Shown here piece by piece: positions 20,190-64,000 of a stretch of DNA of 64,000 nt (the stretch's first letter is position 1; each line of letters starts with the position of its first letter). The stretch lies in the NCBI RefSeq assembly GCF_000375425.1, contig NZ_AQXG01000006.1, forward strand, positions 115,076 through 179,075, given 5' to 3'. This DNA is from Gracilimonas tropica DSM 19535. Its GTDB lineage: Bacteria > Bacteroidota > Rhodothermia > Balneolales > Balneolaceae. The notes beneath the pieces are model-generated. The model was not told the origin of the DNA, did not search any database, and saw only the letters and a program-made list of their open reading frames with translations. Made by a program: the position numbers and the translations under genes.

Positions 20190-20190
20190 G

Positions 20191-44518: not shown

Positions 44519-44531
44519 CACCTAAAACCTC

Positions 44532-45722: not shown

Positions 45723-45748
45723 CACCGTAACACTATAACACCGACCAC

Positions 45749-46222: not shown

Positions 46223-46224
46223 AT

Positions 46225-46251: not shown

Positions 46252-46271
46252 GAAAGCGGAATCAATAAAAT

Positions 46272-47000: not shown

Positions 47001-47069
47001 CGGTTTATTGTTTTGTTTAGAGGTCGAATTTAAAAATAATATTTACGAATTAATTTAAAAACAGTTACA

Positions 47070-47360: not shown

Positions 47361-47368
47361 TAATTAAT

Positions 47369-48076: not shown

Positions 48077-48136
48077 ATTTGCCTGTCTCTTAATATTAAA
48101 CTACGTTCGGATTACAACCTTAAATAATTTAGACCG

Positions 48137-48571: not shown

Positions 48572-48573
48572 GA

Positions 48574-49562: not shown

Positions 49563-49565
49563 AAC

Positions 49566-50161: not shown

Positions 50162-50206
50162 AGCTCATCGGTTGTAGATCCCCGGCCCGAAGGCCAGGGA
50201 AAGGGG

Positions 50207-50713: not shown

Positions 50714-50754
50714 GATTAGGTGGGTTTATGGTGATTATTTAGGGGTCGAATTTC

Positions 50755-51129
50755 TTAATACTTCCATGAAGCCGGGACAGAGAATTTTTCTTTTGTAAGT
50801 TCCGCGATGGGATATTTGATCGTTCGGCTGATTTTAGTGGTTACTCCTGCGGCAACAAATTCAATATTTCCACCACGGATCAGTGAATTGCGAATTACTT
50901 CAACTCCCAGGTAGAAAGAACACTCTTGTGGTTGCACGCCAATCACCTTGCCAGTGCCAGTTTCAACAGTCCAGGATTTAAGAAGCTGTCCCTGGTCTTC
51001 AAACTTCACTACATACACTTCTTTTTCATCCATTGGTATAGGAACCTTTTCTGTTTTGCAGGTAAAACCAATCCCCATGCTTTGGTTAGCGAGTTGATTA
51101 ATGCGATTTATAGTGTGTTGTTTGCTCAT
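50755..51129 (-). CDS. Phage protein of unknown function
   Basis: 124 residues, beta-rich (VYVVKFEDQGQLLKSWTVET, CSFYLGVEVIRNSLIRGG). It is in the middle operon, overlapping the next gene by 4 nt. The start has the ACCGATGAG context. No family is recognised. Confidence 0.6.
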   Translation of the reverse strand: MSKQHTINRINQLANQSMGIGFTCKTEKVPIPMDEKEVYVVKFEDQGQLLKSWTVETGTGKVIGVQPQECSFYLGVEVIRNSLIRGGNIEFVAAGVTTKISRTIKYPIAELTKEKFSVPASWKY

Positions 51130-51395
51130 CGGTTACTCCTTGTTGGTTTAGGGATATAAAAAGGTCTGGGCGGAGATGGTTGTGGAATTTCATTTTTAGG
51201 GCGTTTGATATTTTCACTTGGAATCACCGGCATATTCAGTTCTTCCATCATTTTTATCGCTTGCTTCATAGCAAAGGTTTTGCCGTTTTGACGGCCAACC
51301 TGTATAACTATTAATGGCTTTTCTCTACACTCCACAATCTCCTCGAGAAGTCTCTTTGCTTGAATGGGGCCGAATTCAATTCCTTCCATAATCAA
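51126..51395 (-). CDS. Small protein with P-loop-like GRQNGKT motif
   Basis: 89 residues. LIVIQVGRQNGKTFAMKQAI resembles a Walker A loop, but the protein is too short for an ATPase and has no Walker B. The C-terminus is Pro-rich (QPSPPRPFYIPKP). It overlaps the Mor-like gene by 4 nt. It could be a regulator fragment or a nucleic-acid-binding protein. Confidence 0.55.
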   Translation of the reverse strand: MIMEGIEFGPIQAKRLLEEIVECREKPLIVIQVGRQNGKTFAMKQAIKMMEELNMPVIPSENIKRPKNEIPQPSPPRPFYIPKPTRSNR

Positions 51396-51709
51396 TCCTC
51401 AAATAATTGTGCCTGATCGGTGTTTTTAGTTTTACTCTGCAGGTGTTTCTTAATCACTTGATAGACCCGCATCTCACTGCAGCCCAGCTTCAGGGCTAAG
51501 TCCTTTGCATTCCCCATCTCATGATTCTCAATGATGTACGCTTCCTGGGCTCGGTTCAATGAAGCCTTGCTTACATACAAATGAATAGAGGGAACGCCGG
51601 AGAGCAGCGAGATCACCGTATCGATCCCACAATTCTCATACACCAGCTTCAAATCTTTATCCAGGTACTTTTCTACGTTATCTATTTCTCGCATCCAGCT
51701 TAAATCCAT
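51392..51709 (-). CDS. Mor-family transcription activator
   Basis: 105 residues. The Mu Mor/C pattern is present: LVYENCGIDTVISLLSGVPS, IHLYVSKAS, and a helix-turn-helix ALKLGCSEMRVYQVIKKHL. Mor activates the middle and late promoters of Mu. Its place after Gp16 matches Mu. Targets could be the palindromes at 20171 and 38629, but that is inference. Confidence 0.82.
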   Translation of the reverse strand: MDLSWMREIDNVEKYLDKDLKLVYENCGIDTVISLLSGVPSIHLYVSKASLNRAQEAYIIENHEMGNAKDLALKLGCSEMRVYQVIKKHLQSKTKNTDQAQLFED

Positions 51710-51710
51710 G

Positions 51711-52166
51711 TCACTTCATCTCCTTTAATGCGGTTAAAATTGCCCGGGCATGTTCCTTCGTCAGCCATACTAATTTCTTCACTCCGGATCCTGGCTGATT
51801 GATGGGGCGAGTTTGTCGTTCAACAAACTGCTCCAGGCTTTCATCGCTCTTATTTCGAGCGATATCCCGCCACATCGCTTCAATCTTTCGAAGCTGCTTA
51901 GGGTCTGCCATGTTGGCCGGACGTGGCCGGAGGTATTCATATTTATGCCGGCCCCAGCCATGCCGGGTCGTTCCTTTGTTCATCTTTCTTTTGGGTTCCC
52001 ATCCTTGAGCCTGCATATCCAATAGCAGCTCCTCAGCCTCAGAATAACTGAGATCCCGGGAAGTACTTACTCCATATTTTGCGAGCATACCTTCATAGGC
52101 TATATCAGTTAATTTCAATTCCTTTTTAGCGATATGAATCTTCGCTTTCTGTGCTTGATTAGCCAT
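51711..52166 (-). CDS. Mu Gp16-like regulatory protein (DUF1018)
   Basis: 151 residues with HIAKKELKLTDIAYEGMLAK, GWEPKRK and KLVWLTKEHARAILTALKE, the DUF1018/Gp16 pattern. The function is unknown in Mu. It is located directly before Mor and overlaps the DnaA-like gene by 8 nt. Confidence 0.85.
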   Translation of the reverse strand: MANQAQKAKIHIAKKELKLTDIAYEGMLAKYGVSTSRDLSYSEAEELLLDMQAQGWEPKRKMNKGTTRHGWGRHKYEYLRPRPANMADPKQLRKIEAMWRDIARNKSDESLEQFVERQTRPINQPGSGVKKLVWLTKEHARAILTALKEMK

Positions 52167-52644
52167 GCTGAACCTCCTTTTCTTTATTGATCAATTTCTG
52201 CAGACCTTTCATGAAATTCCGACTGGGTGAACCGCTGGGCAGGTGAAGGTGAATTTGAACGACGCCTTCCACGCGATCTATTCGAAACACCCCAGGATCC
52301 ATCTCATCCAGCTTGCGCTGCGCCTCCAGGATCCGCTCGTAATATTCCCGGATTTGATTGACCGTGACGTAATATTTCTTTTCAACGGTCTTCTCGAAAA
52401 CATCGAGGGAATGAATGATGGTCGCATGGTTTGCTGGTCGCTTGGAAAGCACAATGCCCTCGGCCTTAGCCAGTAGGTCATAGGTTGGTTTGCGCTCAGC
52501 GAATATGATAGCCCGGAGAATATGCCGGTAATCAGCATGAAGCTGCTCTCGGCCTTGCTGGAATTTCTTCCAGTTATCCGAGCCGTAAAGGAACCCAAGC
52601 AGGTTCCGGTAATCCATAATTAAGTCATGAAGATCTATACTCAT
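52159..52644 (-). CDS. DnaA-domain-IV-like DNA-binding protein
   Basis: 161 residues. RHILRAIIFAERKPTYDLLA and LSKRPANHATIIHSLDVFE resemble the C-terminal helix-turn-helix of DnaA, where R-D-H-(S/T)-T-V reads the DnaA box. The AAA+ domain is absent. It may bind phage or host DnaA boxes; the role is inferred. The AACCGATGAG context marks its start. Confidence 0.65.
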   Translation of the reverse strand: MSIDLHDLIMDYRNLLGFLYGSDNWKKFQQGREQLHADYRHILRAIIFAERKPTYDLLAKAEGIVLSKRPANHATIIHSLDVFEKTVEKKYYVTVNQIREYYERILEAQRKLDEMDPGVFRIDRVEGVVQIHLHLPSGSPSRNFMKGLQKLINKEKEVQHG

Positions 52645-52725
52645 CGGTTTTTGGTTTGGTTGAATAGACCCGGAGGGTATCAGCCCCCGGATCAGCTATA
52701 TGAGTGGATTGTTATGGGGTACAAA

Positions 52726-53256
52726 TTATTTCTGGCCTGAAGCGCCTTTCTGCGTGACTTCCTCTTCTTTAACTTCGTACCAAAATTTGTCGTCAGAAAC
52801 CCGCTTGGCTTTTACTTTCTTGAGGGTTTCATCCGGGTAATCAGCCAGCACGTCTTTGTTTGGAGACTCCTTAACTTTGATAGCATCGGTGAGGCCATGC
52901 TTCTTGAGCAAGTCCAGCGTATGCTTGCGGCTGATACTGATCCGGGTAGATTTTCGGTAGCCTATTATTCCGAAATTCAGCTCTTTGGATTTCTTATCAG
53001 CAAAAAGTTCCTCACGGCTCATCTCGGCATAAGCTGCCAGACCTTTTTCAAAGTGATCGATCTCTTTTTGAATGGGAGCGGCTTTCTCGTTGGCCTCCTC
53101 TTTTATGGCGTTAATGGCATCTTCTGCGTCAGCATCGATGCGCTTTAGCTCAATGCGCCGGCGAGCAATTTCTAACAGTGCGTCGTTGGCTTCATCCAGG
53201 TTTCGGACTGCGGCCATTTTGGTTGTAGGTTTGAATCGTTTTTTTGTCTTAGGCAT
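52726..53256 (-). CDS. gam: Host-nuclease inhibitor Gam-like protein
   Basis: 176 residues, mostly coiled coil (RIDADAEDAINAIKEEANEK), with FGIIGYRKSTRISI as in Mu Gam/Ku-like end-binding proteins. It protects linear phage DNA from exonuclease. Gene order MuB ... Gam ... Gp16 ... Mor follows Mu. Confidence 0.82.
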   Translation of the reverse strand: MPKTKKRFKPTTKMAAVRNLDEANDALLEIARRRIELKRIDADAEDAINAIKEEANEKAAPIQKEIDHFEKGLAAYAEMSREELFADKKSKELNFGIIGYRKSTRISISRKHTLDLLKKHGLTDAIKVKESPNKDVLADYPDETLKKVKAKRVSDDKFWYEVKEEEVTQKGASGQK

Positions 53257-53273
53257 TGGTTTTGATTTTTAGG

Positions 53274-54209
53274 TTAGAATAATCTGATTCGTGTTCGGGA
53301 GTGGTAGTTGATGACATCCTCAAGCATGCGCAGGTAGCTTTCACTGTCGCTGCACTTGGTAAATTTGTCAGGTGCCATCGATACTTTTTTGATGATGAAT
53401 TCTGGTGAAAGCTCGGCGAATTCCATTCCTTCTACCAGGGCAATGATGAAACTTCGGTCTGTAGTAAAGTCTCCATATTCAGATAGGTCTTGAACGAGTT
53501 TGCCGGTTTTCTCTGCAAATTCTTGATGCTCCAGGTGGAGTTTTCCGGACTTAAATTCATCCGTAAAGTTTCCACCACCGGTCACTGTTTTGCCCTTCAT
53601 AAGCAACCCGGCAGACATGGTATAAGGCATCTTATATTTATCCAGGAACTCACGGAAGTAGATATATTGCTCTTTGCCTTTCGCGATCCAGTGATCCAGG
53701 TAGTCCTTATATCCCCAGTTCTTCGTGTTGATGTTCAAAGCGATGGCATCATCAATCGTTAAGCCCTTCTTAATGATGTAATAAATAGGCCGGCTTAATT
53801 TCATTGCTGCTCGTAAACGATGCTGGCCATCGATCACTTCATACTTATCATTAACTAAAATGGGCTGAGCAAAAAGAAGATCATTCTTTTTAATACTCCT
53901 GATCAAAGCGGTAACATGGGCATCATTAACACTTCGGTTCTTTTGATTGTAAATAAACTTGTCATACTGCTTCGTGACATAGTATTTATCGCACGGTTTA
54001 TCTTCTGTTTTAATGGGAGAGCCACTAATATTTCCCTTCACAGGGCTTTTCTCTTTAAGGATTCTTTTCATTTCGGATTTATCAATTTTAAGGGTTCCTT
54101 TATTGGTCTCGCAGATAAACCTGGCATCAACTACATAGCAGTCCTGAATGAAATAGGCACTGTCTTTATATTTGATGGTGGTTCCTTTTAATTTTTCTGC
54201 AACACTCAT
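53274..54209 (-). CDS. ParB/Srx-fold nuclease-like protein
   Basis: 311 residues. The middle (about 85-150) carries the ParB-type motif FAQPILVNDKYEVIDGQHRL. The C-terminal half is unique. Similar proteins in phages act in partition or as CTP-dependent DNA-binding nucleases. There is no parA, and a role in early DNA processing is likely. It overlaps the next small gene by 4 nt. Confidence 0.75.
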   Translation of the reverse strand: MSVAEKLKGTTIKYKDSAYFIQDCYVVDARFICETNKGTLKIDKSEMKRILKEKSPVKGNISGSPIKTEDKPCDKYYVTKQYDKFIYNQKNRSVNDAHVTALIRSIKKNDLLFAQPILVNDKYEVIDGQHRLRAAMKLSRPIYYIIKKGLTIDDAIALNINTKNWGYKDYLDHWIAKGKEQYIYFREFLDKYKMPYTMSAGLLMKGKTVTGGGNFTDEFKSGKLHLEHQEFAEKTGKLVQDLSEYGDFTTDRSFIIALVEGMEFAELSPEFIIKKVSMAPDKFTKCSDSESYLRMLEDVINYHSRTRIRLF

Positions 54210-54436
54210 TGTCCTATGTGTTTAAGTTTGCGTTCAACGGTTGCCTTCAGCTCTCGATTAAGCAACTCGATATTGTCCTCGATCCAGTCTTTCACATCAG
54301 GCCAGTCTCTGATCCAGTCGGTATCGCGGATCGTTAGCAGGTAACCCGCCGGCACGTTGGCCATCAGGGTTCCTTCGTACCTGCCCGGGACCGGGCAGGG
54401 CGAAGTATCGGTTAGTGGTTCGGTTCTAATGGGCAT
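54206..54436 (-). CDS. Small DUF3820-like phage protein
   Basis: 76 residues from ATG at 54434-54436, chosen because GGAGGAG lies 3-9 nt upstream; a longer start at 54448 would include that SD. The body MANVPAGYLLTIRDTDWIRD resembles DUF3820-type phage proteins. Function unknown. Confidence 0.65.
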   Translation of the reverse strand: MPIRTEPLTDTSPCPVPGRYEGTLMANVPAGYLLTIRDTDWIRDWPDVKDWIEDNIELLNRELKATVERKLKHIGQ

Positions 54437-54782
54437 ATTCTCCTCCAACCGTGGTTTTAGAAGTCAGTCCCTTGCTGTTAACCAGCCAGGTAGATTTAGT
54501 CATCTTCCGTTCGTAGTACTTAAGCTGCCGTTCAGCAGCTTCGATCTGAACCCTGGGGGCGTGGGTATTACGCAGCTCATAAAGGACTTTTCGCCAGCTA
54601 TAAAGAATTGTATTGGGATTTCCGTCCCACATTTCCTGGTACAAGAACCAGTTCATGATTTCGGCATTCTTCTCATCAGCCACACGTTTTATTTGGCTGT
54701 AAAACACCACGCGGACCAGCATTAAAATGGCCGCTATTATTATTCCAACTACCAGGGTAATAATGATGTATTGATCTAACAT
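54426..54782 (-). CDS. Membrane-anchored early phage protein
   Basis: 118 residues from ATG at 54780-54782, preceded by CAGGAG. A single N-terminal membrane helix (about 4-24, IITLVVGIIIAAILMLVRVV) is followed by a helical cytoplasmic domain with ILYSWRKVLYELRN. It is unusual to find a membrane protein inside an early operon; it could act in superinfection exclusion, but nothing proves this. Confidence 0.65.
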   Translation of the reverse strand: MLDQYIIITLVVGIIIAAILMLVRVVFYSQIKRVADEKNAEIMNWFLYQEMWDGNPNTILYSWRKVLYELRNTHAPRVQIEAAERQLKYYERKMTKSTWLVNSKGLTSKTTVGGEYAH

Positions 54783-55048
54783 GATGTCTCCTGTTTGCAA
54801 TTATATTCAAAGATGTGCCAGACATAACCTTGCTGAAACACAGTCTCCAGGTATGTCCCATTTTTAGCTTTTGAACTAAGCTTATTTCCGGTACCAACTA
54901 TGCAGAAATTTCTTTCCTCCTCATCGGCTTCCGAGTCAACCATAGCCCACAAATACAGCTCACCATTTTGGTAAGCGATCTTAAGGATCTCCGCGCCCTC
55001 TCTTATCATTACTGAAGGCTGCACTTTGTATTTATAGATCACTTTCAT
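54776..55048 (-). CDS. DUF7352-like small protein
   Basis: 90 residues. MKVIYKYKVQPSVMIREGAE and YLWAMVDSEADEEERNFCIV match a family of small phage proteins with the pattern of a beta barrel. Function unknown. It lies after MuB and overlaps the next gene by 7 nt. Confidence 0.6.
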   Translation of the reverse strand: MKVIYKYKVQPSVMIREGAEILKIAYQNGELYLWAMVDSEADEEERNFCIVGTGNKLSSKAKNGTYLETVFQQGYVWHIFEYNCKQETSC

Positions 55049-55058
55049 TTCAGCCTCC

Positions 55059-55997
55059 TTAAATAATTACATATTGCTGAGCCTTCTCGACCACTTCAGC
55101 GCCGATCCGGTTATTCGGGATATCGTTCTTCTGAGCCAGCTGAAGCGTCCGCTTCATGAGCTTACTCAGCGACCGGCCATTCTGCGTTCGCTTAAAGAAA
55201 TGCTTATACAATCCGTTACTCGAGGGAATAGCAGCTTGTACCAGGAGCTTTACATCTTCCTCTTTCAGATTTGATAGCTCTGCCTTAATTCCTATTCGGG
55301 AATACAGCTGTCGAAAATCTGACTTCAAGCCTCTGAGGTTCTGAAGCAGCTTCGGCATTCCTGAAAGCAGGATCCCGATGCCGGTCATATCGTGAAGCCG
55401 GCGGGTTAGCTCCAGGGCTGAGGTCGGGAGATGCTCCGCTTCGTCTATAATTAAGAGCCGATCGGTCCCTTGCAGTTTCTCCCGGGCATCCTCAAACATA
55501 GCCGTTTGCGTTCCGCTCCCTGCAAATCCGATCTCCTTGTGGATCTTTGTCATGAGCGTTTTAGCGGTTGTTCCAGGAATGACTTCTATAAGAATCACCC
55601 CGTCAGGATTGTCCTCATTGTATTGATGGAGGGCACGGGTCTTGCCTAATCCGGCATCCCCTGTAACCACGCCCATTTCACCTTCCACATGGCATATTCG
55701 GGCTACATTATACACCCGCTTAAAGTTGTTAGTAGGCAGGGTATCAATCAGGATCTCTGAATAATCCTCCCGCTCTACCTGGCGCTGCAAAAAGGATTCG
55801 ATCTTCTTGGCCACGGTCTCATTGTCACCGGGATATTTGTCATTCATAAACTGCGACAGCAACGCTCCGGAAACGCCCAGGCTTCGGCTCACCGCATTAA
55901 TACTGCTGCGGGTATCATCACCACTGTTTTGAGCATCTATATACTGTTTAAGATTCTCACGTTGTTCGTTGATGTAGGTTGTTTTATCTTTTTTCAT
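55059..55997 (-). CDS. MuB-like AAA+ transposition protein
   Basis: 312 residues. An N-terminal helix-turn-helix (about 20-55, INAVSRSLGVSGALLSQF) precedes an AAA+ domain with GDAGLGKTRAL (Walker A) and RLLIIDEAEHL (Walker B). MuB binds target DNA and stimulates the transposase. It is located in the MuA-MuB order with two small genes between. The leader AACCCACCTAATC stands directly before the ATG. Confidence 0.92.
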   Translation of the reverse strand: MKKDKTTYINEQRENLKQYIDAQNSGDDTRSSINAVSRSLGVSGALLSQFMNDKYPGDNETVAKKIESFLQRQVEREDYSEILIDTLPTNNFKRVYNVARICHVEGEMGVVTGDAGLGKTRALHQYNEDNPDGVILIEVIPGTTAKTLMTKIHKEIGFAGSGTQTAMFEDAREKLQGTDRLLIIDEAEHLPTSALELTRRLHDMTGIGILLSGMPKLLQNLRGLKSDFRQLYSRIGIKAELSNLKEEDVKLLVQAAIPSSNGLYKHFFKRTQNGRSLSKLMKRTLQLAQKNDIPNNRIGAEVVEKAQQYVII

Positions 55998-56008
55998 GAT
56001 TAGGTGGG

Positions 56009-56326
56009 TTACTTTGTTAACTCATCGGTTGCAGAGGCCGGTTGCCCAGGGGTCGAATCTGAAGCGCCGGTCTCTGTATTTTTTGGGGTTATCATTTCTT
56101 CGATCATGCAAAGGCCAGCTATAAAAGCATCCTGCTGCTCTTCGCTCCAGTCCACAGCCAGGCTCGCCATATAAGTAGTCAGCGTATCCTTCTCGAACTT
56201 GGAAAGCTGCTTCTCAAAATTGATCAAATCCTGAGCGGTATTTTCTTTTTGCGATCTTTCTTCCTGAATTTCATCAGGAGTTGCTTTACTTGAGTATGGG
56301 CTTCTATATTTTTCTGCTTTACTCAT
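56009..56326 (-). CDS. Early phage protein of unknown function
   Basis: 105 residues, helical and acidic, between MuA and MuB. Visible segments are QEERSQKENTAQDLINFEKQ and SLAVDWSEEQQDAFIAGLC. It overlaps the small gene upstream by 4 nt. No family is recognised. Confidence 0.6.
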   Translation of the reverse strand: MSKAEKYRSPYSSKATPDEIQEERSQKENTAQDLINFEKQLSKFEKDTLTTYMASLAVDWSEEQQDAFIAGLCMIEEMITPKNTETGASDSTPGQPASATDELTK

Positions 56327-56520
56327 GCCGCCTCCTGCATTAGAATGTCATTCGCCTGATCCACCAGGGCATCGTACTCCTCAAAAGTGGAATAGGAAAC
56401 CTTGTCCAGGTCAATCGTTTTCGCTTCATCGTAAAGCCTTGAGATCTCGGCTTTATCTTCGTTCTCGATCGCTTCTTTCAGCGCCTTAATAATTAGCTGT
56501 AAATGATAGGTGTTAGTCAT
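56323..56520 (-). CDS. Small acidic early phage protein
   Basis: 65 residues from ATG at 56518-56520; a longer frame to 56559 begins inside the end of MuA. Leu- and Glu-rich helix (LIIKALKEAIENEDKAEISR). The ACCGATGAG motif lies just before the chosen start. No family is recognised. Confidence 0.55.
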   Translation of the reverse strand: MTNTYHLQLIIKALKEAIENEDKAEISRLYDEAKTIDLDKVSYSTFEEYDALVDQANDILMQEAA

Positions 56521-56548
56521 CGTCTCATCGGTTTTGTTAAGGGTTAAA

Positions 56549-58522
56549 TCAGTCTTCATCCCAAATAGACTTCAGGGATTTTTTAGATCCGGAATCATCC
56601 GGTACAAAATCACTCAGGTCGTCGGTGCCGGTACGTTGCATTTTCTCGTCCTTCTTGATCACCTCATCCATCTTTGTGGTATCCATCTGAATTACCGGCA
56701 CTTTTTCGCTGTATTCGTTAAAGTCTCCTTTCTCCAGGCGAAGCTTTTCTTCGGCCTTAATATTGTAGGTCAGCGCATCCAGGATCTCTTCTGGAGAAGG
56801 CTGGGCATTCATGGCCAGGCGCTTCTTATGCATCTTCACTTCTTTACGCTTCCGCTTCTGGATCTCTCGAAGTTTGGCTTTCTCGATATCGCTGCTTACA
56901 AATCCGGAGATGGTATCGGCCAGCTGAGCTTTGCCCAGGAACTCATTGGTTTCATAAGCAAACACCCAGGCTTCCTGGTAGGCCTTGATATCTCTGCGGA
57001 GATAAACTTTCGTGCCTTTAAAGCCCATCATCCATTCGGCGTAGTAATACTTTCCAAGATCTCCATCCTTTACTCCGTTACGCATAATGGTAGCCTCTCG
57101 GGAAGTACGCATGCAGAACATTCGGAGGGTTTCCGGTCGGATAGCAATCTTCTTTTTATACTCAGAATAGAAGGCTTCATCCGGTGACCGGCCCTGAAGC
57201 TCTTTGCCTTGGCTGGCTTTCTTATTCAGTACCTCAAAAACAAACTGGTTAAACAACCGGTCGAACTTTTTAAAAGTCATCAGCTCGCCTTTTTTAACCA
57301 GCTCCTTCGTGGATTCCGGTCGGTCTTTAGGGTGAGAACCAGTGTACCCGGGGAGATGCTTTTCCAGGTATTCAATGAAACCCCTGAAGGCACGTTCAAT
57401 ATTCTTTGATTGGGCATTATAAGGAAGGCTAAACTGCGCTTTAATACCCATTAAACTTACCAGCGTTCGGGCCTCGGCTTCATCATCAATCGCCTGGTGT
57501 TTTCTGCCACCGGCAAAGTCCTTCGATCGGTAATCCTTACCATTATCTATATAGATGCCTTCGCCGGGTCGGCCAAATTTTTCAATACCCCATTTAAAAC
57601 TCTGAAAGATGTGATCAGAATTAGGATCAGCTTCATGGTTAAATATGCTGATGAACTTATTCGTCTTGAAGTCCATCCAGGCCGTACACCAGGGACGGAA
57701 GATCTTGCCGGTTTCCTCGTTAATAACAAAGAGATCGATCACTCGGTGGTCACCAACCCACCAGGCATTGGCAGGAATATCCGACTTATCGCGATCCACA
57801 TAATCGGCATACTTTTTATTCCAGGCTTCCTCGCCATATCGCGCAAAATAGATCGTACTATCCGAGTGCTCATTTTCCAGCCGGCGTAAAAAGGTTCGGG
57901 CTGTCGGGAAGTCCGAAACATCCCGGCCTTCCTTAAATGCCTGGCCCCGTACAATATTCCAGCAGCTTTCAGCCGAGGGCCGGCTCTCCTTTAAATAGAG
58001 CGCTTCAAACAATTCATAATCTTCATCGGTAGTCTTGGAATCCCCGCGCCGGTTTCCATAATTAGGGATCAGCGCAGTCAGGCCTTCCTCTTCATACGCC
58101 TTCCTGTACCGGTAAAAGCTTTTCAGTGAAACCTTCTCCTCCGGATGCGATTGCTTCCAGGCACGGATCGCGCCTTTCAGCTCCTTACCTTTCAGCTCTC
58201 CAAACTGCTGTATCAGGTTCAGCCAGAGATTAGCATGCTCCTTCGCATAATCCGGAGCCTTGGCATAAGCCTCCGCATCCATCTGCTGTTGCAACAGATC
58301 ATCGTTAGCCTCAAAATGGTCACGGATATAATTAGATCGGTGGGGTTCCGGGAGTCCTAAAGGATTCACTTCAAGCTGTCGGCCACCGCGGCCTAAACCA
58401 TCCACATATCTATAATATTGATCCGCAATTTTCTCCCGCTTTATGTACTTATATATAGCGTCAGAAGAGAGGGGTATTCTGTCCGTTAGTTCTGAAACCG
58501 GTATAAAATTCATTTTTCCCAT
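56549..58522 (-). CDS. MuA-like DDE transposase
   Basis: 657 residues from ATG at 58520-58522, 8 nt after the Ner stop, chosen over an earlier start inside the Ner gene. The core domain has D in WWVGDHRVIDLF (about 255), D in IYIDNGKDYR (about 326) and E in KNIERAFRGF (about 374). An N-terminal helix-turn-helix region (PVSELTDRIPLSSDAIYKYI) binds the ends and a C-terminal region contacts MuB. It catalyses replicative and integrative transposition of the phage. Confidence 0.95.
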   Translation of the reverse strand: MGKMNFIPVSELTDRIPLSSDAIYKYIKREKIADQYYRYVDGLGRGGRQLEVNPLGLPEPHRSNYIRDHFEANDDLLQQQMDAEAYAKAPDYAKEHANLWLNLIQQFGELKGKELKGAIRAWKQSHPEEKVSLKSFYRYRKAYEEEGLTALIPNYGNRRGDSKTTDEDYELFEALYLKESRPSAESCWNIVRGQAFKEGRDVSDFPTARTFLRRLENEHSDSTIYFARYGEEAWNKKYADYVDRDKSDIPANAWWVGDHRVIDLFVINEETGKIFRPWCTAWMDFKTNKFISIFNHEADPNSDHIFQSFKWGIEKFGRPGEGIYIDNGKDYRSKDFAGGRKHQAIDDEAEARTLVSLMGIKAQFSLPYNAQSKNIERAFRGFIEYLEKHLPGYTGSHPKDRPESTKELVKKGELMTFKKFDRLFNQFVFEVLNKKASQGKELQGRSPDEAFYSEYKKKIAIRPETLRMFCMRTSREATIMRNGVKDGDLGKYYYAEWMMGFKGTKVYLRRDIKAYQEAWVFAYETNEFLGKAQLADTISGFVSSDIEKAKLREIQKRKRKEVKMHKKRLAMNAQPSPEEILDALTYNIKAEEKLRLEKGDFNEYSEKVPVIQMDTTKMDEVIKKDEKMQRTGTDDLSDFVPDDSGSKKSLKSIWDED

Positions 58523-58529
58523 AATCCGC

Positions 58530-58799
58530 CTAAGCTGCTTCAGATTCGCGTTTTTCAGAATTCTCAACTTGTCCGTTAGTCTGTCCGTTACTTGGGTACG
58601 AGAAAGGGACAACTTCCTGGGCCTGTTTAATGGTTTGAGATATGAGCTTTCTCAACCGGGGAGATCTATTGGCACCCTTAGCTGCATACATTACTGCCGT
58701 TGGTGAAACATCCCACTCCTTGGCTTTCTGAGACGCATTTGTCTGCAGGATCTCACAAGCAATTTTGAATTCGTGGTACCTATCTTTTAAGTCCTTCAT
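58530..58799 (-). CDS. Ner-like early transcription regulator
   Basis: 89 residues with the helix-turn-helix KAKEWDVSPTAVMYAAKGAN and RSPRLRKLISQTIK. In Mu, Ner represses the early and repressor promoters in the lytic cycle. It is the first gene of the early operon, divergent from the repressor across the palindromic operator. Confidence 0.72.
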   Translation of the reverse strand: MKDLKDRYHEFKIACEILQTNASQKAKEWDVSPTAVMYAAKGANRSPRLRKLISQTIKQAQEVVPFSYPSNGQTNGQVENSEKRESEAA

Positions 58800-58836
58800 T
58801 AGTTACATTCAGTTGTAATCTTTAATTAAACTTTTT

Positions 58837-58862
58837 AAGTATAAACTTTTTGTTTTATACTT
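58837..58862. promoter_or_regulatory. Palindromic operator between repressor and early genes
   Basis: AAGTATAAA and TTTATACTT are perfect 9-bp inverted arms separated by 8 bp. They lie midway between the divergent repressor and Ner-like genes, the location of the Mu early operator. A smaller repeat TTACA...TGTAA at 58803-58818 lies nearer the Ner-like gene. Confidence 0.7.
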
Positions 58863-58900
58863 GCAAGACTTAAAATTTATAACTCTACTAAAAATTTATA

Positions 58901-59422
58901 TTGGGAAAAGAGATCTCAAATAGGCTCCAGCAAGTCGCTGAACTGTTATTCGAGGGGAATCAGGCAGAAATGGCACGTGCTATGGATATGACTCCGCAGG
59001 GACTCAATCCATATTTAGTAGGCGATAGAAACCCTGGATTCAAGCTGATTAAACGTTTAGTAGAATTGGGAATAAACGCGACATGGATAGTCACCGGCGT
59101 AAAACCAATGCTAATAAAAGATATTACGCACGCGCAGGTTACAAGGATAGATATGGTTCAGGAAGATATAGAGGGCGAAGGCGAATATGCTAACAAAGAG
59201 AAGAAGGGCATGGATCACTCAGATCCGGGCAATGGTTTTTTCGCACATATCAATCAGGACGATCTATCAGAGACTGAACATGATCTGCTTGTAGAAGTAA
59301 GGCGTTTCTCAGATTTTCTAAAAACGACAGGCGTACCTCTCCAGGTGAAGCGTCTAATGCTCGAGTTAATGATAGAGCACATTGATCAAGAGATTGCACG
59401 GCTTCGAGATAATCAAACGTAG
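58901..59422 (+). CDS. Phage repressor (CI/c-type)
   Basis: 173 residues starting at TTG (58901); no ATG or SD is available in frame. The N-terminal helix-turn-helix is AEMARAMDMTPQGLNPYLVG with LIKRLVELGINATWIVTG, as in lambda-type repressors. The C-terminal part is helical (RRFSDFLKTTGVPLQVKRLM) without a recognisable protease domain. It maintains lysogeny and is opposite in direction to the early operon. Confidence 0.85.
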   Translation: MGKEISNRLQQVAELLFEGNQAEMARAMDMTPQGLNPYLVGDRNPGFKLIKRLVELGINATWIVTGVKPMLIKDITHAQVTRIDMVQEDIEGEGEYANKEKKGMDHSDPGNGFFAHINQDDLSETEHDLLVEVRRFSDFLKTTGVPLQVKRLMLELMIEHIDQEIARLRDNQT

Positions 59423-59666
59423 TAAACTTCATTTCAACGTATTTTAAATTATGATTTAAGCGAGCCTGAAGGTAGTTTAATGCCGTGTTTATTGGATAGT
59501 AAAAATTCTCAAACCATCTCGCAAAAACATGAAGTAATCTCGAAGTTTATGAAGTTTTTCTCAAATTGCCTTTTTTCCCGATATCGCCCTCTACGCCTAC
59601 ATGATCCCCGTTTTTGTGGGCTTTTCCCGCTTCACCCTTGATTCTCAAACCATACACCCCCTTATA
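59423..59666. repeat. Prophage early-end terminus with MuA-type end sites
   Basis: No gene is seen in this stretch. It holds two full copies of ATTCTCAAACCA (59505-59516 and 59641-59652; reverse complement TGGTTTGAGAAT) and one partial TTTCTCAAATTG (about 59557-59568). The last full copy is 14 nt from the terminal TTATA. Wide spacing at this end and tight spacing at the other mirrors the asymmetric ends of Mu. Confidence 0.85.
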
Positions 59667-59671
59667 TTATG
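59667..59671. repeat. Right copy of the 5-bp target duplication TTATG
   Basis: TTATG directly follows the right terminus CCCCCTTATA and equals the left copy at 20115-20119. The reconstructed empty site reads GGAGATTATGAGTTAATAAA. Confidence 0.85.
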
Positions 59672-59714
59672 AGTTAATAAACGGTGATAATTTTAAAACA
59701 AGCAATTCTGTAAA

Positions 59715-59757
59715 CCGAAGCTACGTCCGCGTCCCAGTTAATGCGCTTGTTAGCTGT
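59715..59757 (-). repeat. Truncated attC-like site A
   Basis: Only the half next to the cassette is present: GTCCGCGTCCCAGTTAATGC followed by GCTTGTTAGCTGT, matching the right halves of the sites at 62305-62432 and 63128-63260. The distal GCTAACG half is missing. It begins 6 nt after the lipoprotein stop. Confidence 0.65.
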
Positions 59758-59761
59758 GCGG

Positions 59762-60109
59762 CTACAGCTTGAATTTTAGTGAATTTCCTGAACTTCGTTT
59801 TTCTATTCCCCACATAATAAATGCTTCATCTGATGATTCTTGATAGCCCATTATCTCACTATATGGAATAGAGACTTTTGAATTTCCTTCAATAGTAGGC
59901 CATTCAGCATTAGGATCTAAATCAACCAGTGTGGATGTTTCATATTCAAGTAGGATGTAATGGATAACCTCATCCGAATTGTTCGTAAGAATTACGGCCG
60001 ATTCTTTTGTTGTAATGCTGAGGTTTTCATCACCAAGTGAATCCACACTACTATTACAGGAAAGAAAAATGAACGAGGCAAAAACGGAGATATAAAGTAT
60101 TTTTTTCAT
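59762..60109 (-). CDS. Cassette-borne lipoprotein
   Basis: 115 residues. The signal peptide MKKILYISVFASFIFLSC carries a lipobox (FLSC). The mature part is a small beta domain (NNSDEVIHYILLEYETSTLV). No family is recognised. It occupies one cassette between attC-like sites A and B. Confidence 0.8.
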   Translation of the reverse strand: MKKILYISVFASFIFLSCNSSVDSLGDENLSITTKESAVILTNNSDEVIHYILLEYETSTLVDLDPNAEWPTIEGNSKVSIPYSEIMGYQESSDEAFIMWGIEKRSSGNSLKFKL

Positions 60110-60144
60110 ATCAACACCTTCTGTATTTGTTTAGTAATTAGTAC

Positions 60145-60279
60145 AGCTAACGACCCAGCGTTTAAACGGCACAGGGATTAAGATTTAGTTGAAGTAGCGA
60201 AATTAATTCATGGCAATCAAGTTCCATCGAACCCTGTCCCGAGCAATCGGGGCGTCCGCTTTAAAACGCTTTATTATAC
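60145..60279 (-). repeat. attC-like site B
   Basis: AGCTAACGACCCAGCGTTTA at one end and the GTCCGCTTTAAAACGC half at the other form an imperfect hairpin of about 135 nt. The outer heptamer at the high end is ATTATAC instead of G/TTATAC. It follows the ParE stop by 8 nt. The middle AGTAGCGAAATTAATTC is shared with sites D and G. Confidence 0.75.
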
Positions 60280-60287
60280 CAATTTTA

Positions 60288-60590
60288 CTACCGCGATTTA
60301 AGTATATCAAGATGCAGAAATTGTTCTTCACGGATTACATGGACGATATATACAATCTCATTTTCCTGCCGATAAAATATCCGGCAAGGAGATAAAACTA
60401 CTTCTCTATATATAGAGTTCTCAACCTCTTCAATAAGCTTACCACTTTTAGGATGAGGCGCCAAGCGCTCTATTTCTTCGAATGCAGATCGAACTAACTT
60501 CTTTGCAGCTGTTGGATTATCTAAAGAAATGTAGTCAGCTATTTCGTCTAACTCATTGAGAGCCGGTACAGTCCAAATTATTCGAGCCAT
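60288..60590 (-). CDS. parE: RelE/ParE-family toxin
   Basis: 100 residues with the family pattern: WTVPALNELDEIADYISLDN, PHPKSGKLIEEV, REVVLSPCRIFYRQENEIVY, and a basic end. RelE/ParE toxins cleave mRNA on ribosomes or poison gyrase; this one looks more ParE-like because the ribosome-dependent catalytic residues are not evident. It overlaps the antitoxin gene by 13 nt. Confidence 0.9.
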   Translation of the reverse strand: MARIIWTVPALNELDEIADYISLDNPTAAKKLVRSAFEEIERLAPHPKSGKLIEEVENSIYREVVLSPCRIFYRQENEIVYIVHVIREEQFLHLDILKSR

Positions 60591-60835
60591 CTTGCCATGC
60601 GTTTCTTAGCCTCGGCATGGGGTACAATACGGCCCTCAAGAATTGCTTTTTCACCGCGAGCCAATCCTTCAAGTAGAGATAATTTTTTTTGAATGTGCTC
60701 AAAATGATCTACATCAACAAGATATGCTGAAGGTTTTCCATGCTCAGTAATTAGCACAGGTTCCTTTTCCTCGTGTAATTCTTTGAGAAGTTTAGTTGCT
60801 TGACGTTTAAGTGTTGTGACCAATTCTGTTTTCAT
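60578..60835 (-). CDS. Phd/YefM-family antitoxin
   Basis: 85 residues. The N-terminal DNA-binding Phd fold reads LKRQATKLLKELHEEKEPVL and ITEHGKPSAYLVDVD. The C-terminal helix neutralises the toxin encoded just downstream. The palindrome TGATACTAAAGTATCA (60838-60853) lies 3 nt upstream of the ATG and is the likely autoregulatory operator. Confidence 0.9.
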   Translation of the reverse strand: MKTELVTTLKRQATKLLKELHEEKEPVLITEHGKPSAYLVDVDHFEHIQKKLSLLEGLARGEKAILEGRIVPHAEAKKRMARWLE

Positions 60836-60837
60836 AG

Positions 60838-60853
60838 TGATACTAAAGTATCA
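60838..60853. promoter_or_regulatory. Operator palindrome of the Phd-ParE operon
   Basis: TGATACTAAAGTATCA has perfect 7-bp arms separated by 2 bp and touches the antitoxin start. Autorepression through such sites is standard for Phd systems. Confidence 0.7.
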
Positions 60854-60890
60854 TTTTCAAGAGAGATTGGCAAGAACTACTGTAAAATTG

Positions 60891-60981
60891 GTATAACGAC
60901 CCAGCGTTTAAACGGCGCGGATAAGTCTTTGAATATAAGCGACTAAACGCAAACGCGTCCACTTAATTTGCTTTGTTATAC
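60891..60981 (-). repeat. attC-like site C
   Basis: Outer heptamers GTATAAC and GTTATAC are perfectly inverted. Inner AGCGTTTAAACGGCGCGG and ACGCAAACGCGTCCACTTAA are partially paired. The whole is 91 nt. The stop of the next cassette gene lies 5 nt from the high end. Confidence 0.8.
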
Positions 60982-60986
60982 TGCTG

Positions 60987-61283
60987 CTAATTTGACTGTG
61001 ACTTATGATGTTTTTGAACCTTCATGTAAACAAATTCAGAACGAGCTTTCGAATCCAAAGGTATTTTTTTCTTCTGAGCCCATTGAACCAACTCATCTAA
61101 ATCTATTTCAATCTTATACACTTTAAATCCGAGATCATTGAAGTTTTTGAGTGCTCTTTCTGCAGCATTTTTCCAATCCTGATAGGTTTCATCAAAAGCA
61201 TGACTGTCAGAACTAATCTGTTTAGCCTTTTCCCATTGTTTAGGCTTCCACCAAAGAATTCCAGTAACGTTTGTTTCTGCCAT
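60987..61283 (-). CDS. Cassette-borne protein of unknown function
   Basis: 98 residues, soluble. WWKPKQWEKAKQISSDSHAF and LGFKVYKIEIDLDELVQWAQ are the visible features. It fills a cassette by itself, with 5 nt from its stop to attC-like site C. No family is recognised. Confidence 0.75.
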   Translation of the reverse strand: MAETNVTGILWWKPKQWEKAKQISSDSHAFDETYQDWKNAAERALKNFNDLGFKVYKIEIDLDELVQWAQKKKIPLDSKARSEFVYMKVQKHHKSQSN

Positions 61284-61307
61284 TACAGTTTGAAATATTG
61301 ATTAGCA

Positions 61308-61453
61308 GTATAACGGCCCAGCGTTTAAACGGCGCGGGGATTATGATTTTCTTTTGAAGTAGCGAAATTAATTCCTAGCAATCAAGTTTCCTTCGAACTC
61401 CGTCCTGCCTGTCCCGAGCATTCGGGGCGTTCGATTTAAAACGCATGTTAGCC
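61308..61453 (-). repeat. attC-like site D
   Basis: GTATAACGGCCCAGCGTTTA at the low end and TTTAAAACGCATGTTAGCC at the high end, 146 nt in all. The inner CGGCGCGGGG pairs with CCCGAGCATTCGGGGCG. The inner variable part is closely similar to site G. Confidence 0.78.
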
Positions 61454-61462
61454 ATATTTTTG

Positions 61463-62296
61463 TCAGTAGTTCTCTATTTCGTGTATCCAAGATTCTAATG
61501 TATCAACAAGTTGAGCTTTCAAGGACGCATCAAACGTAGAATTAATGTTTATACTGTCTGTAGACCTTGTTTCTAACGCTCTTATAGCTGATTTATATCC
61601 AGGAATTCTATTTTTAAGAAAAGATTTAAATTCATGGTTAGCTACTTTGAAAGTTTCTCCGGACCACGAGTAAATCGTGGCAAAGGAAGGGTTTTTATCA
61701 AGCCCTACATTTGGTAGTAAATCATCATCTATACTTACGTGGTTTAAAATAACTTCACACTGTCCATTCGAATCAATGTCTTCGACGAATATCAAATTAG
61801 TAGTATTGCTATGAAAGGAAGCCAATGTATCATTAGAAGCCTGCGAGTAAATAATAAGTTGCTCTTCGAATTCAGAACGAAGCTTGATAAGAATTTCCTG
61901 ATCCTCTTGCGAGGTAATATTTCCAACAGCTACTTTATCTGGAAAAGAATCAAGAAACGGGCCAGTTGTATCTCTGATAGCTATTTTACTCTTAGTATCT
62001 GCCAGAAGTAAATAATTATAGCCTTCTGATTTTGGATATTTTGATATATGAATTATGTATTCATCAGGACCAACTCTATAAAATGGATAGATATTAAACT
62101 CTCCATCTTTCTGATTTTTTTCATCCCAATACCAAGTAACTTTTTTTGCTTGTTCTTTTTCAAGATGATCAAAAAGATTATCGGGCAGTGTTTGATGTAA
62201 TCCCTGAAACTTTGCAAAGCTTACATCCCCACATTGAGCAAAGGTTAAACTAAAATTCAAAACAGAGAGTAGAATTATAAGAAGCGCTGTTTTCAT
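61463..62296 (-). CDS. Cassette-borne secreted protein
   Basis: 277 residues from ATG at 62294-62296; an earlier in-frame Met would fall in the attC site. The signal peptide MKTALLIILLSVLNFSLTFA ends before QCGD. The mature part is unrecognised, acidic and beta/alpha mixed. It occupies the cassette between sites D and E. Confidence 0.78.
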   Translation of the reverse strand: MKTALLIILLSVLNFSLTFAQCGDVSFAKFQGLHQTLPDNLFDHLEKEQAKKVTWYWDEKNQKDGEFNIYPFYRVGPDEYIIHISKYPKSEGYNYLLLADTKSKIAIRDTTGPFLDSFPDKVAVGNITSQEDQEILIKLRSEFEEQLIIYSQASNDTLASFHSNTTNLIFVEDIDSNGQCEVILNHVSIDDDLLPNVGLDKNPSFATIYSWSGETFKVANHEFKSFLKNRIPGYKSAIRALETRSTDSININSTFDASLKAQLVDTLESWIHEIENY

Positions 62297-62304
62297 TTTA
62301 ATGT

Positions 62305-62432
62305 GGCTAACGACATTGCGCATAAGGTGCAAGCACCAACTTGTTGAAATTGTTTACAAATGAAAGGTTAACCATAAAAAGGAAAGCGGGCAAGATCAGG
62401 CGAGGCCTGTCCGCTTAATGCGCTGGTTAGCC
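62305..62432 (-). repeat. attC-like site E
   Basis: Outer heptamers GGCTAAC and GTTAGCC are perfectly inverted. Inner CGACATTGCGCATAAGG and TTAATGCGCTG pair partly. Total 128 nt. The Doc stop lies 6 nt from the high end. Confidence 0.8.
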
Positions 62433-62438
62433 GTATTT

Positions 62439-62831
62439 CTATTTTTCTATAGCTTTCTCTTTCAGATGTTTAGCAAGATCTTCTTTGGAAAGATCTTTTG
62501 ACAAAAAGTCCAAGACCAAGTCCGCAAGTTCTAAATCATATGATTCTTCAACTTCATATCCATTGAGATACAAAAAGGTCAGAGCGGAGGCCAACGCCGT
62601 ACGCTTATTTCCATCGACGAATGGATGCCGGATTGTTAAACAGATGATGTAGCTGGCAGCCATTTCAAATAAATCATTCAAGTACTCACCATCGAAACTC
62701 GCCTTTGGAGCCTCAGCACAAGCTTGGACGTCTTGTTCTTCTCGAATGCCTGGAGCGCCGCCTGCTTTTTGAATCTCTTGCTCATGGATGAATAAAATGT
62801 CTTCCGTAGTTACAAAGGAAGGCTCTTTCAT
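62439..62831 (-). CDS. doc: Doc/Fic-family toxin
   Basis: 130 residues. The Fic motif reads IRHPFVDGNKRTA, as in Doc kinase-type toxins that phosphorylate EF-Tu. EDILFIHEQEIQKAGG and the C-terminal LSKEDLAKHL complete the fold. It shares a cassette with the AbrB-type antitoxin upstream. A decayed copy lies at 19517-19765. Confidence 0.93.
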   Translation of the reverse strand: MKEPSFVTTEDILFIHEQEIQKAGGAPGIREEQDVQACAEAPKASFDGEYLNDLFEMAASYIICLTIRHPFVDGNKRTALASALTFLYLNGYEVEESYDLELADLVLDFLSKDLSKEDLAKHLKEKAIEK

Positions 62832-63037
62832 TATTCACCCAGTTTATCTAACGATTTTCGATGCTTTTTGCTGACTTCCTGATAAGCAGATTTTGCATCA
62901 ACTTTTTTAATCAAAAGTCCTTCATCTTGTGGGATAATTTCTACTTGGTCGTCATCTTCAACTTTCAAAAGTCTGAGTAAGGCTTTTTCCAGCAAAACAC
63001 CACGACTGTTGCCAATTTTTTGAAGTTTCTTAATCAT
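62831..63037 (-). CDS. AbrB/MazE-type antitoxin
   Basis: 68 residues with the SpoVT-AbrB beta-hairpin MIKKLQKIGNSRGVLLEKAL and EDDDQVEIIPQDEGLLIKK. It is the partner of Doc; the end of its coding region overlaps the toxin start by 1 nt. An imperfect nested palindrome (63040-63085) upstream is the likely operator. Confidence 0.88.
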   Translation of the reverse strand: MIKKLQKIGNSRGVLLEKALLRLLKVEDDDQVEIIPQDEGLLIKKVDAKSAYQEVSKKHRKSLDKLGE

Positions 63038-63039
63038 AA

Positions 63040-63085
63040 TCGTATCGTTTTATGTTCTTACAAAGTTATTAACATAAGAATACGA
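63040..63085. promoter_or_regulatory. Probable operator of the AbrB-Doc operon
   Basis: TCGTAT...TTATGTT and AACATAA...ATACGA are nested inverted arms around a 14-nt centre, just upstream of the antitoxin ATG at 63037. Confidence 0.5.
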
Positions 63086-63127
63086 AATTAAAAGCAAAAA
63101 AGTATAGCAGAAGGGAAGATTTAATAC

Positions 63128-63260
63128 GCCTAACGGCCCCGCGCGTAACCGGCGTGCAGGCCAACGTTATTTATTTATTTATAAATGTACTACAGTAATT
63201 GATGATTTAAAACCTGGCAGCTGACGGCGAGGCACGTCCGCGTTGACGCGCTTGTTAGCT
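63128..63260 (-). repeat. attC-like site F
   Basis: GCCTAACGGCCCCGCGCGTA at the low end and TCCGCGTTGACGCGCTTGTT, AGCT at the high end, 133 nt in all. The next cassette gene stops 7 nt from the high end. Confidence 0.78.
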
Positions 63261-63267
63261 GTAAACT

Positions 63268-63741
63268 TCAAGTTTTGTGCTGGGAAACTTTTACAACTTT
63301 GCCATTTTCAAAAAATATTAAAAGAACGCTTGGATCTATATTTGCAATGCCAGGAACAAATCCAAGCATGTAAGCCCAATTATCTTTTTCCATGTCATTA
63401 CTTGGACCTAACATCTTTTCAACTTCTTTTTTTGTTTTCCCAATAAGTAGTTCACTTTCAATAATATCTTCACTCATCTCATATCTTTCGGAAGGTTCAT
63501 CCATCCACTCTTGTTGGTCAAATTCTTTGCTTGGATAATAACTGATAAGGAATATGAAGGATAAGACTAAACCAACATAAATAAGAGGAGTTATAATAAC
63601 TGTACCGATTGAAGATAAGAGTTGTCGGCTTTTGATTGAAAACTTTGTCTTTTTTAACAACCATCTAAAGAAGAAAAATACAGGAATAGCAATCAAAATA
63701 TTGATCACAAACACTTCAATTCCTATTCCAAATATCGACAT
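63268..63741 (-). CDS. Cassette-borne membrane protein with SmpA/BamE-like C-terminus
   Basis: 157 residues. Two membrane segments (about 9-27 and 45-68) are followed by a soluble domain with LLIGKTKKEVEKMLGPSNDM and VLLIFFENGKVVKV, resembling the SmpA/OmlA fold. It is alone in its cassette between attC-like sites F and G. Function unknown. Confidence 0.78.
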   Translation of the reverse strand: MSIFGIGIEVFVINILIAIPVFFFFRWLLKKTKFSIKSRQLLSSIGTVIITPLIYVGLVLSFIFLISYYPSKEFDQQEWMDEPSERYEMSEDIIESELLIGKTKKEVEKMLGPSNDMEKDNWAYMLGFVPGIANIDPSVLLIFFENGKVVKVSQHKT

Positions 63742-63764
63742 TGTTAATTTTACTTGAGTTTAAC

Positions 63765-63898
63765 AGCTAACGACCCAGCGTTTAAACGGCGCGGGGATTA
63801 TGATTTAGTTGAAGTAGCGAAATTAATTCCTGGCAATCAAGTTTCATCGCACCCCGTCCAGCCTGCCCCGAGCATTCGGGGCGTCCGATTTAAAACGC
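63765..63898 (-). repeat. attC-like site G, interrupted by an IS110-family element
   Basis: AGCTAACGACCCAGCGTTTA begins the site; it follows sites B and D closely through GGGGCGTCCGATTTAAAACGC, then stops at 63898 where the conserved GTTAGCY heptamer should come. The IS110-family element follows. Confidence 0.8.
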
Positions 63899-63916
63899 CT
63901 TGATCTTTCCAAAAAG

Positions 63917-63971
63917 GACGTCCTCCCGTAGATTAGTTATTCCCCAATAATCTAAACACAAGGAGGACGTC
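63917..63971 (+). promoter_or_regulatory. Hairpin that sequesters the transposase ribosome binding site
   Basis: GACGTCCTCC (63917-63926) is perfectly complementary to GGAGGACGTC (63962-63971), which contains the GGAGG SD just before the ATG at 63972. A second stem AGATTA/TAATCT lies inside. Read-through transcripts from outside would fold and block translation. Confidence 0.7.
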
Positions 63972-64000
63972 ATGACCTATTTAGGAATAGATCTTCATAC
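63972..64000 (+). CDS. IS110-family transposase, N-terminal start (cut by window edge)
   Basis: ATG at 63972 gives MTYLGIDLH, the N-terminal strand with the first acidic residue of the DEDD (RuvC-like) domain of IS110 transposases. Only nine complete codons are inside the window, so the call rests on these and on the inverted-repeat context. Confidence 0.65.

Follow-up and report, generated by a model that had tools for sequence, protein, structure and literature searches.

How could a gene cassette array be part of a working integron when the integrase gene lies on a different contig? The question is raised by the right-hand end of a 64,000-nucleotide (nt) stretch of the Gracilimonas tropica DSM 19535 genome (the window; contig C6:115076–179075 of 3.83 Mb in 48 contigs), where six cassettes and seven attC sites occupy 59667–63902, all on the minus strand. 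The feature is a real mobile gene cassette array, in itself of an ordinary kind. We consider it probable that it forms the distal portion of an integron array on the chromosome, and that one integrase (IntI) serves several such arrays in trans, each headed by its own attI.

The repeats are integron attC sites

Direct reading of the interval, an open reading frame list and a repeat search give five intact palindromes (91–146 nt) and two interrupted ones. The minus-strand layout is RYYYAAC, an L'' box, a variable centre and then ...GTCGTTRRRY. All eight cassette genes share this strand, with the stop of the last gene 5–9 nt ahead of the attC, and two of the six cassettes hold a toxin–antitoxin pair: ParE with Phd/YefM, both recognized by Pfam, and Fic/Doc with a partner lacking a Pfam match. 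Five of the eight genes gave no match in the Pfam search. An earlier note on this DNA, made from the letters alone, had described an integron-like cassette array in a Balneola-type genome with seven palindromes, a short gap between stop codon and palindrome, a single coding strand and one gene or one toxin–antitoxin pair per cassette, and all of this holds; relatives in the genus include Gracilimonas amylolytica LA399, G. mengyeensis DSM 21985 and metagenome-assembled genomes of Balneolaceae.

The note had proposed a covariance-model search of both strands as a check, and its outcome supports the assignment. Model R2, built from 16 attC sites outside the window (its E calibration is rough), gives six matches at E ≤1 across the whole window (3.4e-22 to 2.7e-6), all on the minus strand and all inside the array. 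Model R1 was built from 21 attC sites of the genome, including five in the window; run with filters off at 56000–64000, it returns six sites, all minus, the sole plus-strand match being weak (E 0.52). Neither model finds the leftmost site, attC A, which is split by a prophage. A pattern for the attC 3' end, allowing at most three mismatches, matches four times in the window (0.00 expected) and 21 times genome-wide, against zero for the same pattern read backwards.

What argues most strongly for integron attC sites is the complementarity of the cassette ends, which marks site-specific recombination of cassettes. In each cassette, 5' TTRRRY and 3' RYYYAA derive from one circle and should be complementary, whereas the two ends of an attC need not be. 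Using four R-box positions, one of them nearly invariant, agreement in the window array is 23/24 within cassettes versus 13/20 within attC sites, in the array on contig C2 48/48 versus 27/52, and for both arrays pooled 71/72 versus 40/72. Thermodynamics alone gives no proof of the attC fold, because the single-strand DNA folds of the five intact sites are at best weakly better than those of shuffles, neither strand being clearly preferred (z from +0.2 to −2.2 across the two). Folding the attC alignment predicts 17 pairs, nine of which have two-sided changes that are kept in some sequence.

One integrase gene and several attI-headed arrays

The genome contains one full-length intI, on contig C7, with an attI and a first cassette (320 aa; TIGR02249, 446 bits, the only one of 13 genome matches above the cut-off). 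The order on C7 is a 302-nt cassette ending ACATAAC, an element of about 150 nt, then intI; at intI loci such an attI-like element separates the first cassette from intI. The C7 sequence begins within a repeated cassette, 521 nt ahead of intI, and its first 302 nt, running to the contig end, are identical to C2:2545–2846 in the interior of the C2 array. Identical cassettes at the intI locus and in the C2 array represent movement inside this genome; C27 and the C2 array likewise have 591 identical nt in common. In 10 of 11 intI loci the motif TGTAAGGA-N13-CG[CG]TCT stands 50–66 nt ahead of the intI start (about 456–482 on C7). It resembles an ECF-sigma-type (extracytoplasmic function) promoter, and intI may therefore be free of LexA/SOS control. 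The promoter part of the attI query also matches further places across the 11 genomes of the genus.

R1 finds 35 attC sites in the genome at E ≤0.01 (on C2, C6, C27, C1, C17, C21, C5 and C7). Besides the C7 copy, attI-like elements occur at C2:8278–8429 (96%), C1:749258–749401 (93%) and C2:652924–653074 (91%); each of these three orphans heads an attC array and has unrelated sequence beyond it, with no intI. Two of the arrays, C1:747250–748653 and that at the left end of C2 (C2-left), have at least two attC sites and no nearby intI and are thus clusters of attC sites lacking an integron integrase (CALINs); the array at the right end (C2-right) has one complete attC before the contig ends. Other attI types act as heads on C5, with the R box mismatched, and at 698 kb on C1, with it matched. 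As a side observation, a cassette gene on C27 (L132, 1440–2705) carries a C-terminal domain of Shedu SduA (PF14082), which makes its cassette a candidate for anti-phage defence.

The earlier note had called the window array a CALIN and expected its integrase to the right of position 64000. An intI with attI does exist in the genome, on C7, but the window's contig ends first, at base 64000, about 98 nt into an insertion sequence (IS) of the IS1111 type. The matching flanks of its copies join the window array to C2-left, C2-right or C27, if the assembly contains both flanks of each copy; two of these routes lead to an attI without intI and one to an unassembled head. The window array is probably, then, the distal part of an attI-headed chromosomal array that continues through the IS into one of these three contig ends. 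The cassette-array part of the label stands; CALIN is one possible label for the array, the contig ending inside the IS.

Orphan attI elements and the R box of their first cassette

Matches to attI occur in all 11 genomes of the genus, this one included. We counted as orphans 30 matches that include the cassette-side end of attI, four of them from this genome, mostly leaving out promoter-only matches (query 152–190). In 20 of them an attC lies on the cassette side, always correctly oriented; none of the 30 has one on the wrong side or strand. The three variable bases at the orphan junction equal the R'' box of that attC, which lies 0.26 to 4.5 kb away, in 18 of the 20; in 100000 shuffles the mean is 3.2 and the maximum 11. 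The intI loci, as positive control, match in 8/9, and a second set, made up of diverged copies or further attI types, in 6/8. Some weak orphans (for example, L150, L151 and L164) were picked partly for a nearby attC. L167–L176 were chosen for their attC sites, and only those with an attI match (L167–L170) are counted, in the second set; L171–L176 gave no attI match, several of them being cut by contig ends. On the side away from the cassettes (the far side), the intI leader motif is kept in 15 of the 30 orphans, compared with 0 and 1 in control windows. A tblastn search of the 30 far sides with 11 IntI queries gave one trivial match (E 0.33), so the orphans have no recognizable decayed intI.

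Across a wider set of genomes, TIGR02249 is above its cut-off in 31 of 58 genomes searched (this one included), and R1 matches in 11/11 genomes of the genus and in 5/5 searched genomes of four other genera of the family. A single attI type, searched across 58 genomes of the order, matches in six, from three genera. Outside the genus, 20 stretches at array heads (five genomes, four genera) comprise three cut by contig ends, three intI loci and 14 others; on the expected side, six of the 14 heads match in sequence (best E 8e-16 to 0.002), with the R box matched in four of the six. L244 and L262 also fit and are left uncounted because the search that located them used the R box itself.

L256 is a weaker candidate head, found through the same R-box search as L244 and L262. 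At L139 (G006:C2:1–6500, 2943–3253) two attI types stand in tandem at one head, one of them 98.8% identical to the intI-linked attI of that genome. At L090 (G007:C4:753500–773000, 10509–10640) a second attI-like element (69% over 133 columns) lies inside the array of an intI locus, as though two arrays, each with an attI head, had fused. G004 has three intI genes above the family cut-off (C3:449750, C2:63861 and C16:31885).

Shared junctions, different cassettes

Clustering 47 far flanks by matches of at least 200 nt between genomes (E ≤1e-20) places 31 of them in eight site clusters. At sites A, C and G, at least one species has intI where others have an orphan attI. At site A, orphans in this genome, G001, G004, G006 and G008 correspond to a full intI in G007, and G002 and G003 have related flank sequence with no attI detected; at site C, intI is found in G005, with orphans in G007 and G009; at site G, intI is present in G001, G006 and G008, whereas G005 has an orphan. 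Only orphans are seen at sites B, D, E and F, and intI occupies site H in G002 and G004. Cluster E joins two groups through a match that is 3 kb out of register, and cluster C is joined through shifts of about 1 kb; these two may be neighbouring rather than identical sites. Because intI occurs at sites orthologous to orphans (A, C and G) and the leader motif persists on half of the far sides, the orphans appear to derive from loss of intI.

In seven species pairs, at five sites, a one-piece alignment runs from the attI start through the intI-less flank (956–1238 columns). The adjoining 1.5 kb on the cassette side is unrelated in six of the seven (no homology at E ≤1e-5). A junction without intI that two species have in common is most simply inherited from their ancestor, which puts the cassette change later and thereby points to an integrase acting from elsewhere. 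A tree built from 31 attI elements implies 20 changes of the genome label (23.5 when shuffled; 41 of 5000 shuffles as low) and 12 of the site label (14.1 when shuffled; 318 of 5000 as low). This fits a mix of inheritance by site and homogenization within genomes, and is not decisive.

Weighing the explanations

The reading that we favour is that IntI made from the single intact locus would excise and insert cassettes at all arrays in trans, each local attI serving as a docking point. Docks without intI would be former integron platforms that lost intI, kept attI and still exchange cassettes, those near attI presumably being best expressed. That IntI acts in trans today we infer from comparison of genomes.

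Several observations weigh against this. Sixteen of the 47 far flanks are unclustered, the intI locus of this genome among them. The seven collinear pairs are not independent, coming from five sites with three pairs from site D, and in one of them a second attI adjoins the first (G006, site B). The exception among the seven, G001/G008 in cluster E, has 613 nt in common on the cassette side (95%), at a shifted position, and four further pairs with non-collinear flanks have 47–121 nt in common there, about the size of an attC. For 10 of the 30 orphans no attC was detected in the stretch fetched, and R boxes mismatch in 2/20 and 2/8 orphans, 1/9 intI loci and 2/6 heads outside the genus. The leader motif on 15 far sides fits plain degradation as well, homologous recombination between arrays, or excision alone, could also have changed the cassettes at orphan attIs, and the head of the window's own array is unassembled.

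Part of this list recurs in the best of the alternatives, that the intI-less arrays are dead remains (the CALIN as degraded integron), attI persisting by inertia without recombination. It would account for intI occurring in some species but not in others at sites A, C and G, for the leader relics, for the orphans with no attC detected, and for the decayed doc gene, IS and prophage at the distal end of the window array. It sits poorly with the differing cassettes in six of seven pairs that have an intI-less junction in common, with the matched R box in 18 of 20 orphans, and with the identical cassettes at the intI locus and an intI-less array. We regard it as unlikely.

Less likely still is one ordinary chromosomal integron fragmented by the draft assembly, in which the window contig would run on to intI on C7 and the other arrays would be its pieces. 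C6 does end in a multi-copy IS and C7 does start within a repeated cassette so close to intI, in an orientation that fits. Yet the C1 array and its attI (C1:747250–749401) lie inside one 784-kb contig, attI stands beside unrelated chromosomal flanks at C2-left and C2-right, and G001, G007 and G008, assembled in 6–7 contigs each, also have orphan attIs. We reject it as the whole explanation, given the attI-headed arrays in long contigs and in these relatives.

Cassette insertion at chance sites of the genome (off-target, attG-type) is a known route to CALINs (PMC8618304, in the part of that article drawn on here). Two lone attC sites may be of this kind: C1:416845, with no attI-like match within 1.5 kb on each side, and the weak match C7:155839, with none in C7:150000–162000. 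For the arrays at 749 kb on C1, C2-left and C2-right the idea is very improbable, given that a conserved element heads each of them and that many such elements occupy orthologous sites across species. That the element of about 150 nt is a miniature inverted-repeat transposable element or other dispersed repeat, near arrays by chance, is scarcely credible despite its several copies per genome and an internal dyad (read from the sequence, with ATATTATCCGAAC near both ends), since it separates intI from the first cassette at intI loci, has attC on one side and in one orientation in all 20 orphans with an attC nearby, and bears the first cassette's R box at the junction in 18 of them.

For the Gracilimonas group as a whole, we put forward at even balance a distributed integron: a single integrase serving several attI docks, many of them conserved between species, with intI at different docks in different species while the docks persist and exchange cassettes in trans. 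If so, the arrangement probably extends to more of the Balneolaceae.

Insertions into the array and its rnpB side

Both outermost attC sites are interrupted. The earlier note had listed the left palindrome as truncated. It is indeed incomplete locally, and is no simple truncation: attC A is split by a 39.5-kb Mu-like transposable prophage flanked by a 5-nt target duplication, TTATG (20115–20119 and 59667–59671), and its flanks, joined across the prophage, align over 95 nt with the intact attC at C2:4469–4590. The palindrome noted as interrupted is just that, the rightmost attC being split at about 63903 by the IS1111-like element (Table 1).

The note had also set the array next to rnpB (19001–19463). 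By coordinate the two are 40 kb apart; with the prophage set aside, only a decayed doc gene and an IS110-family fragment are recognized between them. The decayed doc is probably the distal remains of the array adjoining rnpB. A role for rnpB as a conserved integron site was considered and rejected: in genus members having both, the two genes occupy separate contigs, except in G002 and G004, where they stand about 52 kb and 414 kb apart. Separately, the RNase P RNA of this genome scores 152.9 bits, against 172–254 bits in the 16 relatives searched.

The IS1111-like element belongs to the IS110 superfamily. Its transposase starts at 63972 in the window, and PF01548 matches the N-terminal 90 aa of another copy. 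Left ends with assembled flank are found on C6 (the window), C17 and C21, and right ends at C2-left, C2-right and C27; all six flanks, three left and three right, are attC halves cut at the same point. An apparent 9-nt inverted repeat, read from the element ends, is AAAAAGGAC / GTCCTTTTT. An attC-targeting IS is thus present in Balneolaceae, where it also breaks the assembly. The non-coding region at its right end may encode a target-guiding RNA.

Table 1. Features of the cassette array and its surroundings (window coordinates unless a contig is given)
Feature	Position	Strand	Evidence or remark
Decayed doc gene	19613..19760	-	79% identity to cassette doc over 150 columns
IS110-family transposase, C-terminal fragment	19726..20091	+	PF02371, E 5.4e-11
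attC A, 13-nt continuation beyond prophage	20107..20119	-	Joined-flank alignment
Mu-like prophage in attC A	20120..59666		Mu-type transposase 56549–58612 (-), PF09039 + PF09299
attC A, R''-side part up to prophage	59667..59755	-	Alignment to attC at C2:4469–4590
Cassette gene, 115 aa, lipoprotein-like by eye	59762..60109	-	No Pfam match
attC B	60145..60279	-	Covariance models; R'' box TATAAT instead of TATAAC
Cassette gene, ParE toxin	60288..60590	-	PF05016, E 2.3e-16
Cassette gene, Phd/YefM antitoxin	60578..60835	-	PF02604, E 1.4e-15
attC C	60891..60981	-	Covariance models
Cassette gene, 98 aa	60987..61283	-	No Pfam match
attC D	61308..61453	-	Covariance models
Cassette gene, at most 289 aa, exported protein by eye	61463..62332	-	No Pfam match; start at ATG near 62296 likelier than longest frame
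attC E	62305..62432	-	Covariance models
Cassette gene, Fic/Doc toxin	62439..62831	-	PF02661, E 7.5e-13
Cassette gene, 68 aa, probably the antitoxin to Doc	62831..63037	-	No Pfam match; presumably AbrB/MazE-like, by eye
attC F	63128..63260	-	Covariance models
Cassette gene, 157 aa, membrane-protein-like by eye	63268..63741	-	No Pfam match
attC G, R'' end removed by IS	63765..63902	-	R1 and R2 matches
IS1111-like (IS110 superfamily) element, left end, inserted in attC G	63903..64000	+	Boundary uncertain by 2–3 nt
IS1111-like copies	Window 63903–64000; C17:1–909; C21:20351–20986; C2:654022–654361; C2:1–95; C27:4825–5107		

Relation to known systems

Sedentary chromosomal integrons of the Vibrio/Xanthomonas type resemble the present system in having intI, attI, attC cassettes in one orientation, toxin–antitoxin cassettes and one intI platform. 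They differ in that here extra arrays with their own attI and no intI lie at several sites, many conserved between species, and in the conserved TGTAAGGA-N13-CGSTCT motif of the intI promoter region. Integrase-less arrays are common (2961 CALINs and 2760 complete integrons, about equally frequent, in the relevant part of one large survey, PMC9024848), and that account adds that standard software leaves attI outside class 1 undetected. Three origins for such arrays have been proposed in the section of PMC8618304 on which we draw.

The CALINs of Xanthomonas, found at seven separate loci with partial conservation across species, also place attC arrays without an adjacent intI at positions conserved between species (PMC12444791, as far as the portion used here reports); here attI heads the arrays and the cassettes turn over, whereas that portion leaves attI unmentioned. 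The closest precedent is direct: in the excerpted description of Shewanella prophage M16-3, attI is found both at the integron and at a CALIN, an integrase-less attI-headed array beside an integron of the same attI type. That case is a single cryptic prophage; ours is a genus-wide, multi-site chromosomal pattern with evidence of orthology and turnover. Delta-attI-type cassettes of class 1 and 2 mobile integrons likewise carry attI away from its usual place, and functionally so, though in the passages describing them (PMC12901181) attI replaces attC at the downstream end of a cassette, and here it is the array head.

The element that ends the window resembles the IS1111-attC group (ISKpn4, ISPst6) in its DEDD transposase, its insertion at one attC end and what may be a subterminal inverted repeat, and differs in host phylum and in an inverted repeat of about 9 nt rather than the usual 11–13, to judge from the part of PMC11187229 that treats the group; there a seekRNA from the 3' non-coding region guides targeting.

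Within the open-licence PubMed Central literature, with subscription papers outside its scope, we found no paper treating Gracilimonas together with integrons and no report of a genus-wide set of intI-less attI-headed arrays. The cassette array itself is of a known kind; what appears to be new is that intI-less attI-headed arrays occur across the genus, many at orthologous positions, with turnover of their cassettes. The attI-like heads, and the differing cassettes behind the same intI-less junction, make the question of origin and function testable. If the proposed reading is true, many 'degraded' arrays may still function as annexes to an integrase encoded elsewhere, and if the integron is distributed in this way, intI would turn over between docks while the docks persist.

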